Positions 2,473-63,042 of a stretch of DNA of 64,000 nt are shown here, in pieces. The notes below the pieces were generated by a model that saw only the letters and a list, made by a program, of their open reading frames with translations, ran no database searches and had not been told where the DNA came from. This DNA is from Lactiplantibacillus xiangfangensis. Its GTDB lineage: Bacteria > Bacillota > Bacilli > Lactobacillales > Lactobacillaceae. A program made the position numbers and the translations under genes. Within the stretch, counting starts at the first letter, position 1. The number at the start of each line of letters is the position of its first letter. Location of the stretch: assembly GCF_001438845.1 (NCBI RefSeq), contig NZ_JQCL01000080.1, positions 348,073 to 412,072 on the forward strand, written 5' to 3'.

Positions 2473-3321
2473 ATGCAAGTGTTAAAAAAATTTTGGCGCC
2501 AAATAACTGTTTCGGTGGTCTTCATCGGACTCGTGGTTGGCTTCGTTGTCCTACTCGCCACGAACAATACCGCCACGGTGAACATCGCAAACGTTAATAT
2601 TCGCCAAGGTCCCGGAATGAGCTACGCCATTGCGGACGCGACAACCAAAGGGACCAAAGTTCACATTATTAAGCGCAAAAACAACTGGCTATATGTTCGT
2701 TACGCGGATCATAAGTTTGGTTGGATTGCCAGCTGGCTCGTCAACGAACACAATACCCAATTAACGCGGACGACTAAAATTTCCGAAGCCACCATCGTGC
2801 TTGATCCAGGTCACGGGGGTTCCGATTCCGGTGCACTCTCCAGTCAGGGAAAGATGGAAAAGACGTATACGCTGCGCGTCGCTAAGGTCGTTGCTAAACG
2901 GTTACGGGCTGCGGGCGCTCACGTTGTCATGACACGTGACAGTGATGAATACGTCGGTTTAAGTGCCCGGCCCGCAATTGCCAATAAGCTCCATGCGGAC
3001 GCCTTTATCAGTTTCCACTTTGACAGTTCGCCCGAAAAGGACCAGGCTTCTGGTATTACAACTTACTATTACCATAAGGCAACTTCATTGACACTCGCTA
3101 ACGATCTCAGTAAGAACGCCTCGACGTTACCGATTCAAAGTAAGGGCGTTGACTTCGGGGACTTCCTAGTCATTCGCGACAACTCGGTCCCCGCCGTCCT
3201 CATGGAATTAGGCTATATCAATGATAAGTCAGACTTTAAGACGATCAGCTCTAGCCAATACCCTAACGAGGTGGCCCACGCCGTGTATGCTGGTCTCACG
3301 ACTTATTTTGCCAATCAATGA
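2473..3321 (+). CDS. N-acetylmuramoyl-L-alanine amidase with SH3b domain
   Basis: Cell-surface peptidoglycan hydrolase, 282 aa. An N-terminal hydrophobic segment (about residues 12-30) serves as signal or membrane anchor. It is followed by a bacterial SH3 domain (about 36-92, with NIRQGPGMSYAI) and an Amidase_3 domain (about 105-280). The zinc site is visible as DPGHGG, the E of KMEKTY and the H of FISFHFDS; the catalytic glutamate is in VLMELGYI. The domain order resembles B. subtilis YrvJ/CwlC-type enzymes. It is divergent from hisS and ends in its own terminator, so it is a single-gene unit. Substrate class is secure; the physiological role (cell separation or turnover) is inferred. Confidence 0.93.
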   Translation: MQVLKKFWRQITVSVVFIGLVVGFVVLLATNNTATVNIANVNIRQGPGMSYAIADATTKGTKVHIIKRKNNWLYVRYADHKFGWIASWLVNEHNTQLTRTTKISEATIVLDPGHGGSDSGALSSQGKMEKTYTLRVAKVVAKRLRAAGAHVVMTRDSDEYVGLSARPAIANKLHADAFISFHFDSSPEKDQASGITTYYYHKATSLTLANDLSKNASTLPIQSKGVDFGDFLVIRDNSVPAVLMELGYINDKSDFKTISSSQYPNEVAHAVYAGLTTYFANQ

Positions 3322-3338
3322 TTTTTCTCATAGTAGCC

Positions 3339-3382
3339 AAAAAAACACCCCGGAAATTTAAATATTTCCGAGGTGTTTTTTG
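3339..3382 (+). terminator. Rho-independent terminator after the amidase gene
   Basis: AAAAAACACC and CGGAAAT pair with ATTTCCG and GGTGTTTTTT across a short TTAA-type loop, ending in a T run 17-60 nt after the stop codon. Confidence 0.9.
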
Positions 3383-3461
3383 GTCTTTAAAGCTGAATAT
3401 TTAAAGGTTAAAAAGCAAAAATGATTACTAATTAACTGATATAGCAACGTTAGCACCAATA

Positions 3462-3686
3462 AAATTGGTTAAGTTTCCCGCTTCCGGTCATCCATGATTT
3501 CATCTGCCATAGCGACCGGTTCAAGCCAAAAAGCGGTCATGAACCTCACTTGAGAGCCGAAAAACCGCGTCTCTCAAGATGTCGGTGGTGTAAACCGGAA
3601 AATCACCGGTTAACGCCACATTCACGGCAGATTCATCATGGACAACCTTCAGCTATGTTGCAGGTGCTGACAAACTTAACCGGTTT
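3462..3686 (+). ncRNA. Structured element A: candidate non-coding RNA with multi-hairpin junction
   Basis: No ORF of note. A closing stem AAATTGGTTAAGTTT (3462-3476) pairs with AAACTTAACCGGTTT (3672-3686) over 15 bp with two T-G pairs. These are allowed in plus-strand RNA but would be A-C mismatches in minus-strand RNA, so plus is favoured. A second stem inside is TCCATGAT (3491-3498) with ATCATGGA (3635-3642), and ATCTGCC (3502-3508) with GGCAGAT (3626-3632). Three hairpins are enclosed: GGTTCA/TGAACC (3518-3523, 3540-3545), CTTGAGAG/CTCTCAAG (3549-3556, 3571-3578) and GTGGTGTAAACCGG/CCGGTTAACGCCAC (3585-3598, 3606-3619; one wobble, one mismatch). I do not recognise a named RNA family. No clear promoter was found. 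Confidence 0.6.
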
Positions 3687-3711
3687 GTTTTAAAGCAATC
3701 TTAGCGTAGCC

Positions 3712-3865
3712 GGCAGAATCAGTGGGCCATGTCGGCACTGTTAGCTAGCGCTTTTTTGCTAGGTTACAGTGCGGGGCGACTTGAAAGACTCGTCCTTTGG
3801 GCTTTCAAGCGAGGCGGAAGACCGTTCTTTGTCTGCAGCCGACCCCACGGCCCACTGATTCTGCC
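3712..3865. ncRNA. Structured element B: candidate non-coding RNA or MITE-like inverted-repeat element
   Basis: A perfect 17-bp inverted repeat, GGCAGAATCAGTGGGCC (3712-3728) with its complement at 3849-3865, is followed inward by GTCGGC/GCCGAC (3731-3736, 3838-3843). It encloses three hairpins: 3735-3749 with 3758-3772 (GCACTGT...CTAGC), CTTGAAAG/CTTTCAAG (3780-3787, 3802-3809) and a weak AAGA/TCTT hairpin near 3818-3830. The architecture matches element A: a long closing stem around three hairpins, with the central one opened by CTTGA. No transposase and no clear target-site duplication are visible, so RNA is as likely as a MITE. Strand not resolved. Confidence 0.55.
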
Positions 3866-3976
3866 AGCGAAGCGCCGAAGAAAGTAAAAAATTATCATCA
3901 ATCCAACTATTGCTATGCTAAAATTAGTCGCAACGCCTGGTTTTCGTGTTACAACAATCTAAAGGGGGGTATTTAA

Positions 3977-4819
3977 ATGTCATTATCAACAGCTTGGTTA
4001 GCGCAATTACCGTTAACTAATATTAAAACTGTCACACCCGTCAGCGGTGGTGATATTAACGCCGCTTACGCCGTTCAAACGGATCAGACCCGTTACTTTC
4101 TTAAGGTCCAACCCCAGCGTGGCGCAGCCTTTTTCAGTCACGAAGTCACGGGCTTAAAAAAACTGGCAGCTGTCGTAACCACACCTAGGGTAATTGCCAC
4201 TGGGACCATCAACGGTGACGGCTACCTCTTACTAAGCTGGTTAACGAGTGGTCACGGCAGTCAATTTGACCTTGGACGGGCCGTGGCACGGGTGCATCAA
4301 CATCACGCCCCCCGTTTCGGTTTGGACCACGATTTTACAATCGGTAAAATTCCAAAATATAATCAGTGGCAAACGAACTGGGCGACTTTTTATACGCAAC
4401 AACGACTTGATGTATTAGTCAAGTTGGCGAAAGAACAAGGTTTATGGTCAACTAATCGTGACGACCACTATCAGCGTCTCCGGCAACAACTGCTAGTAGA
4501 AAGGCACATGCAGACCGTGCAACCAAGTCTGCTGCATGGCGATCTGTGGTCAGGCAACTATTTATTTACGGCTACTGGTACCCCGGCCTTAATCGATCCC
4601 GACATTTTTTATGGTGACCGCGAAATGGACCTTGCAATGACGACGATCTTTGGCGGCTTTGACGACGACTTTTATGCCGGTTACCAACAAGTTTACCCGT
4701 TTGCACCCGGTTTTGAGGAACGGCTGCCACAGTATCAGCTCTATTATTTATTAGCGCATCTCAACTTATTTGGCGAGACGTACGGCCCCGCCGTCGACCG
4801 AATTTTACAGCGTTACTAA
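3977..4819 (+). CDS. Fructosamine kinase family protein
   Basis: Aminoglycoside-phosphotransferase-like small-molecule kinase, 280 aa, of the fructosamine/ketosamine-3-kinase family. These phosphorylate sugar-amine adducts and so help repair glycated proteins. The catalytic loop HGDLWSGN (about residue 186) and the metal-binding segment LIDPDIFYGDREMDL (about 206) are intact; the N-lobe has SGGDINAAY and FLKVQ. The ATG follows AAAGGGGGG. The gene stands alone and faces the minus-strand HAD gene, ending 8 nt from it. The exact substrate is inferred from family membership. Confidence 0.88.
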   Translation: MSLSTAWLAQLPLTNIKTVTPVSGGDINAAYAVQTDQTRYFLKVQPQRGAAFFSHEVTGLKKLAAVVTTPRVIATGTINGDGYLLLSWLTSGHGSQFDLGRAVARVHQHHAPRFGLDHDFTIGKIPKYNQWQTNWATFYTQQRLDVLVKLAKEQGLWSTNRDDHYQRLRQQLLVERHMQTVQPSLLHGDLWSGNYLFTATGTPALIDPDIFYGDREMDLAMTTIFGGFDDDFYAGYQQVYPFAPGFEERLPQYQLYYLLAHLNLFGETYGPAVDRILQRY

Positions 4820-62954: not shown

Positions 62955-63042
62955 GGAGAGTTGGCAGAGTGGTAATGCACCGGACTCGAAATCCGGCGAA
63001 CCGGCTAATACCGGCGCGCAGGTTCAAATCCTGTACTCTCCT
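62955..63042 (+). tRNA. tRNA-Ser(CGA)
   Basis: Acceptor GGAGAGT pairs with ACTCTCC; anticodon stem CCGGA/TCCGG holds loop CTCGAAA with anticodon CGA (62987-62989), reading UCG serine codons. A long variable arm (ACCGG/CCGGC type) and the T loop TTCAAAT are present. CCA is not encoded. The base after the acceptor is T rather than the usual G. Confidence 0.95.

Follow-up and report, generated by a model that had tools for sequence, protein, structure and literature searches.

Does the 225-nt stretch at positions 3462-3686 of the window encode an RNA of its own, or is it part of something larger? The window is a 64,000-nt stretch of the Lactiplantibacillus xiangfangensis genome (contig NZ_JQCL01000080.1, positions 348,073-412,072), and all positions below are counted along it unless a locus is named. 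A first-pass annotation had read the stretch as a self-contained plus-strand RNA of about 230 nt. We designate the genome itself G000 (2.99 Mb, 103 contigs), that of a sister species G012, and two congeners G001 and G004.

Results

Folding of the 225-nt stretch

The plus strand of 3462-3686 has a predicted folding energy of -88.8 kcal/mol, compared with -54.77 kcal/mol (sd 4.55) for dinucleotide shuffles, none of 200 of which folded as well (z -7.48). Folding thus confirmed the proposed architecture of a closing stem, an inner stem and three hairpins. The two 15-nt arms of the outer stem, 3462-3476 and 3672-3686, are 87% complementary (13 Watson-Crick and two T-G pairs), and all 15 pairs are formed in the predicted fold. 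That the structure is an artefact of chance or composition is practically negligible as an explanation: we found no support for it, and both the shuffles above and the covariation described below, which lies above every shuffle and slid control, argue against it.

The minus strand of the same 225 nt, however, folds to -96.0 kcal/mol (z -7.09, 0 of 200 shuffles as good). Since both strands fold equally well, the two T-G pairs, which had been taken to work only in plus-strand RNA, do not identify the strand. Two other parts of the annotation were borne out. Between 3321 and 3977 there is no ORF that reaches 60 aa, in keeping with the reported lack of protein-coding content. Likewise, no named RNA family was recognized: neither the window repeat nor any of 12 further loci matched an Rfam 15 family at gathering score, and the six matches at E<=1 all fall at 3330-3433, outside the modules. 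A tRNA at 62955-63042 is the only Rfam gathering-level match in the window.

A dispersed repeat built of two facing modules

Blastn of 3400-3976 against its own genome returned 88 matches at E<=10, including weak and self-inverted ones. The homology spans 3402 to about 3882, past the folded stretch on both sides, and full copies (for example L029) run about 65-70 bp further to the right and finish with the left end in inverted orientation. Positions 3462-3686 are the left half of this larger repeat; they hold as a fold but not as a natural unit, the conserved units being the module at 3478-3654 and the repeat from 3401/3402 to about 3882. Indeed, L021, the best-matching other copy in G000, lacks the right arm of the outer 15-bp stem. 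The features of the locus are:

2473..3321, plus strand: upstream gene, a 282-aa ORF, amidase-like by eye; the repeat sits 3' of it
3335..3386, plus strand: intrinsic-terminator-like hairpin (an inverted repeat) and T-run of the upstream gene; by eye, some 25 nt separate the beginning of the T-run from the element edge
3401..3414, plus strand: left terminal inverted repeat, degenerate, differing from CTAAAGGTTGAAAG at 3 of 14 positions (counted by eye)
3462..3476, plus strand: left arm of the outer stem from the inverted-repeat search, partner 3672-3686
3478..3654, plus strand: module A, a closing stem and three hairpins; R1 match, 179.1 bits
about 3518-3545, 3550-3577 and 3585-3619: hairpins H1, H2 and H3 of module A
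3672..3686, plus strand: right arm of the outer stem from the inverted-repeat search, the arm missing from L021
3708..3870, minus strand: module B, homologue of A; nhmmer E 3.3e-31, R1 match of 78 bits
3871..3882, plus strand: last bases common to other copies; full copies go on to a right terminal repeat that is absent here
3977..4819, plus strand: downstream gene, a 280-aa ORF, kinase-like by eye, used for the synteny test

Module B emerged from iterated nhmmer searches, in which 3859-3694 on the minus strand was homologous to the left half of the repeat (E 3.3e-31). Modules A and B are related structures that face each other (convergent). Both have a long closing stem with three hairpins, and the same kind of apical motif, AGCC..GTC, tops two of the three (by eye). 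G000 contains at least 139 modules that match the model R1 at E<=1e-4, a count for which 150 of 1007 candidates were scored; further modules lie, for example, in L229 and L230. Neighbouring modules within 300 bp make up 30 convergent pairs and 1 tandem, and 78 modules are unpaired. Some single-module copies (L228, L229) retain, by eye, only the base of a collapsed second module. At L045 (2021-2350) an unrelated hairpin replaces the inner part of module A.

A phage or plasmid origin was rejected: blastn matched the window repeat to no plasmid or phage. One complete copy, compared with plasmids by blastn, also gave no match, and nor did one module motif in an exact search of viral contigs (one scan).

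The locus in related genomes

Orthologues of the upstream amidase-like and downstream kinase-like genes lie together at loci of 12 genomes. The gap between the two genes is 655 bp in G000 versus about 184 bp in G012, where the kinase-like protein is 94% identical, the repeat is absent and a hairpin similar to the terminator-like one occurs in the unoccupied site. The same gap measures about 70-298 bp in eight other genomes, about 670 bp in G017 and about 1140 bp in G013, the last two being genomes without any R1 match; the gap sequences inspected were that of G012 and those of six other genomes. In G001 (L134/L135) the downstream kinase-like orthologue is broken into two reading frames.

Terminal inverted repeats and target duplications

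Full copies are bounded by 14-bp terminal inverted repeats (TIRs), CTAAAGRTTGAAAG. With at most one mismatch this 14-mer occurs at 73 sites in G000, compared with 1 for the reversed pattern. The 29 TIR-bounded intervals measure 251-668 bp, and 10 of them have identical 7-bp flanks, where reshuffling gives an expectation of 0.6 and a maximum of 5 in 2000. The remaining 19 lack an exact 7-bp duplication; identical flanks at other lengths were found twice at 8 bp and once at 4 bp, and never at 5, 6, 9, 10 or 11 bp. L047 occurs in G000 and in G012 with the same TIRs and is flanked in each by CTCAGAC; the G012 copy has an internal deletion.

The window copy has a degenerate left TIR and neither a right TIR nor a target duplication of its own. 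A clean unoccupied site was not obtained for a full copy with a duplication: both species carry L047, and in G012 another subfamily sits at the insertion site of L039. There, a different module-bearing element (L142, about 2085-2640) lies beside the same TAACAAG at the L039 point, reflecting a hot spot or a replacement. Among 100 loci of other genomes, four were candidates for inverted repeats with 7-bp duplications, and only L199 and L200, which both carry the known TIR, were convincing; none was in 28 loci of other genera. As the main reading, a stand-alone RNA gene is rejected on account of the TIRs, the duplications and the unoccupied site. What had been annotated as a self-contained RNA is instead one module of a dispersed DNA element.

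A candidate parent insertion sequence

A genus-wide search for the TIR revealed TIR pairs about 1.57 kb apart in two congeners. One, L309 627-2193 in G001, is a complete insertion sequence (IS) of 1567 bp with ATAGGAG on both sides; the other, L308 735-2299 in G004, is a complete IS of 1565 bp without a matching duplication. The ends of both, CTAAAGGTTGAAA, are those of full copies of the repeat. Each IS has one long ORF, of 457 aa in L309 and 451 aa in L308. The L309 ORF, the one covered by the scan, matches NCBIfam NF049925 (IS4 family) at 5.9e-138, and the Y(2)R(3)E(6)K signature is present in both transposases, which are of the DDE type. Modules matching R1 were found in neither L308 nor L309, and no parent IS was found in G000 among the 100 TIR sites listed out of 166. 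Relatives of the two IS, at about 50% identity, occur on plasmids of Limosilactobacillus, Loigolactobacillus, Levilactobacillus and Lactiplantibacillus.

Table 1 of PMC2266710 gives the ISPepr1 subgroup a size of 1500-1600 bp, ends of the form YT-AA-YTT---A and direct repeats of 7-8 bp. The IS sharing our TIR resemble the subgroup, as that source presents it, in size, CT-starting ends, 7-8 bp repeats, YREK motif and AT-rich targets, and our end differs from the consensus tabulated there at position 7. By these sequence features the putative parent fits the ISPepr1 subgroup of IS4. Our element differs from such an IS in having no transposase and in carrying two structured modules that the IS lacks.

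The ends are shared with IS4-family IS of congeners, and we therefore regard the element as a MITE, a non-autonomous transposable element, of an IS4/ISPepr1-type element. The 225-nt stretch is very probably the left structured module of such a MITE, moved in trans by an IS4-family, ISPepr1-type transposase. The IS would move the MITE, and the window copy would have lost its right end after insertion; it is a 3'-truncated member of the MITE family, and as such a known kind of element.

The inverted pairs of extragenic palindromic units might also suggest that a Y1 (RAYT) transposase moves the element as a palindrome of the REP/BIME kind. This is very improbable: PF01797 was not found in the module-rich genomes G000, G012, G001, G004, G007 and G010, it was found in the module-free G013, G017, G019 and G020, and TIRs and target duplications would not be expected. 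The lack of PF01797 matches (0 in G000, none in the six module-rich genomes) led us to reject a RAYT/REP origin. REP palindromes, as PMC3733652 characterizes them, are palindromic extragenic units like ours, but of 20-40 bp; our units, likewise found in inverted pairs, have about 175 nt and three hairpins, with TIRs and duplications. The Y1 HUH transposase family has 8 matches in G008 and 7 in G020, genomes with 6 and 0 module matches, respectively.

Modules without terminal repeats in other genomes

R1 matched 15 of 21 genomes of the genus at E<=1e-6, and, with 8 candidates scored per genome, at least 57 of 301 genomes and at least 10 of 40 genera of the family. In G005 all 127 scored candidates matched R1, and the TIR count there was no higher than the control. 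Loci retrieved from other genera yielded no TIR. In 27 loci of G005, conservation beyond the module is reduced to TTG on its left side and A.aTTG on its right, so that the module itself is the repeat in that genome; a search for target duplications around the TIR-less modules of these 27 loci found none. Modules are thus missing from the IS and occur without TIRs elsewhere, and therefore the IS4 account covers this element and not the whole module family.

Compensatory changes in the module stems

We measured covariation in two alignments, A1 and the model-based A3, because aligning all module types jointly with MAFFT gave a poor result. In A1 (32 A-type modules), two-sided changes occur at 28 of 53 pairs, and the covariation score is 0.407 versus 0.142 for shuffled alignments, with 0 of 500 shuffles reaching it; 18 of 500 shuffles did reach one weaker measure, further pair types. 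In A3 (91 rows, five genus labels), 51 of 53 pairs show two-sided changes, and the score is 0.612 versus 0.167 when shuffled and at most 0.114 for slid partners, again with 0 of 500 shuffles reaching it. A3 was fitted to the model and is therefore biased towards it; some of its rows are partial, and one (L155 +) is another row read on the opposite strand.

With increasing divergence, one-sided differences remain roughly level and double Watson-Crick changes accumulate, which indicates that the structure has been kept over long times. The single mismatches, judged by this pattern, look like decay of recent copies. The first-pass annotation had asked for homologues with compensatory changes, and very many were found; it had also counted hits only to a repeat that moves as a DNA unit, with no transcript, against an RNA. 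The repeat does move in that way, yet the compensatory changes exist as well, and its RNA interpretation is partly supported.

Position of the modules relative to genes and terminators

In G000, 37 clusters had gene calls on both sides or an enclosing call; elements near contig ends that were not flanked by genes on both sides were left out. These clusters comprise 18 between co-directional genes, 18 between convergent genes, none between divergent genes and 1 inside a predicted ORF. For comparison, window gaps of at least 60 bp comprise 20 co-directional, 5 convergent and 7 divergent. Gene neighbours were taken from a simple ORF script, which is crude where flanks are short. In G010, where flanks are long, 17 of 20 higher-scoring modules follow the 3' end of a gene in the gene's own sense, as do 20 of 22 A/D modules of G000 (1 more was uncalled). 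A cruder set of 75 modules gave 54 versus 15 in the sense 3' of a gene, with 6 uncalled. The B/C partner modules are less oriented (17 of 26 with a call).

TIR-bounded elements of G000 also lie close to terminators: 16 of 26 are 8-20 nt from a terminator T-run, compared with about 5-12% of window intergenic positions, in a distance range that was chosen after seeing the distances. Within 90 nt the figures are 19 of 26 and 42-65%. These 26 are drawn from the 29 intervals, L027, the second L033 interval and L059 having been left out beforehand. For 15 elements in other genomes, the distance to a terminator T-run is 8-20 nt in only 4 and no more than 90 nt in 10. Among 55 solo modules (G005 and other genera), 18 have a sense terminator at most 45 nt to the left, and 6 have one that faces them from the right.

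A folded single strand or a DNA structure

A fold selected as RNA tolerates wobble pairs in one sense, and we counted G.T against A.C. Single copies have 28 G.T versus 22 A.C without one fixed-T.G pair, and 46 versus 22 with that pair. Across genera, in the best 60 of the 91 A3 rows, the count is 67 versus 44, with 26 of the 67 at the fixed-T.G pair. An RNase P control from 20 congeners (19 distinct) gave 323 versus 4. The consensuses of 11 subfamily clusters, however, have 12 G.T versus 1 A.C, or 8 distinct positions versus 1; these are clusters of at least three, 5 of the 12 G.T come from a single recurring pair, and some subfamilies are represented in clusters of both A1 and A3. The consensuses favour, on small numbers, a single-stranded sense fold (RNA or ssDNA) in propagating lineages.

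Could the element then be a functional structured RNA, regulatory or acting at 3' ends, with genes that are merely repeated and mobility that is secondary? The compensatory changes at 51 of 53 pairs, the 12 to 1 consensus count and the sense placement of higher-scoring modules 3' of genes all point that way. We nevertheless consider it unlikely, because folding is equally good on the minus strand, single copies lack the wobble bias that RNase P displays (28 to 22 versus 323 to 4), G.T makes up only about 2% even in the consensuses, the partner module is antisense, and target duplications are a mark of DNA transposition.

Alternatively, the module might act only as DNA, as a cruciform or ssDNA hairpins that serve mobility or are bound by protein, with the arms matched by arm-to-arm correction and not by selection on a transcript. 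The near-equality of G.T and A.C in single copies, the equal folding of both strands, the inverted pairing of modules and the large excess of double Watson-Crick over one-sided changes at high divergence speak for this explanation; the preference of the consensuses for G.T, 12 to 1, and the gene-directed orientation, unexpected for a strand-symmetric element, speak against it. We regard it as a credible rival, if on balance a doubtful one. Near-equal G.T and A.C counts do not in themselves establish a DNA-only function: that argument is undercut by one-sided differences that look like decay, and the consensuses point in the opposite direction.

Discussion

The above results identify the structured stretch as half of a mobile repeat, very probably a MITE dependent on an IS4/ISPepr1-type transposase. 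What the module does within the MITE is a weaker part of our account. The acting form would be its sense strand, folded on its own, either in read-through RNA at gene 3' ends or as ssDNA in transposition or replication. We prefer the sense strand because the subfamily consensuses keep G.T and almost no A.C, and because higher-scoring modules lie mostly downstream of a gene in its sense. Tentatively, the likeliest single function may be a role at RNA 3' ends that keeps insertions harmless to neighbouring transcription; use of ssDNA or a cruciform in mobility is about as likely.

The element can be compared with several described repeats. QMITE2 of Coxiella, as PMC10969869 describes it, is likewise short and non-coding, with TIRs, direct repeats of 7-9 bp and a stable predicted fold; ours has two separate multi-branched modules inside its ends, with covariation between genera. 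The BOX element of Streptococcus (PMC3049150) is also a modular interspersed repeat with structured units and IS-like terminal repeats. In that account of BOX, boxA and boxC surround a tandem boxB array, whereas ours consists of two homologous facing modules. Large structured non-coding sequence in Lactobacillales is represented, in the accounts of PMC12286853 and PMC5643018, by the GOLLD and ROOL RNAs and a long L. salivarius RNA; our repeat and the 12 further loci differ in having no Rfam match at gathering score. The matches listed in open-licence PMC text include no description of this module family. The conserved covarying module, which has no Rfam 15 match, is thus the part that was found in none of the sources searched.

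The module family may have a history of its own. Conceivably, although we would not call it probable, it is an independent, old mobile structure of Lactobacillaceae and more than the by-product of a single MITE. In some genomes (G005, other genera) it would spread by itself, with edges defined by its own sequence and a placement oriented to genes. In others it would have been captured in convergent pairs by IS4-type MITEs, and it would be recognized as a folded single strand by a host or element protein via the repeated AGCC..GTC motif of its hairpins.

An uncatalogued structure recurs more than 100 times within single Lactobacillaceae genomes, for the most part at the 3' side of genes, and will confuse RNA discovery, terminator prediction and assembly. 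A covarying structure of riboswitch-like quality that is tied to a DNA transposon also calls for caution in RNA discovery based on covariation only. If the module does work as a single-stranded fold, its natural variants would make both the choice between RNA and DNA function and the effects on 3' ends directly testable.
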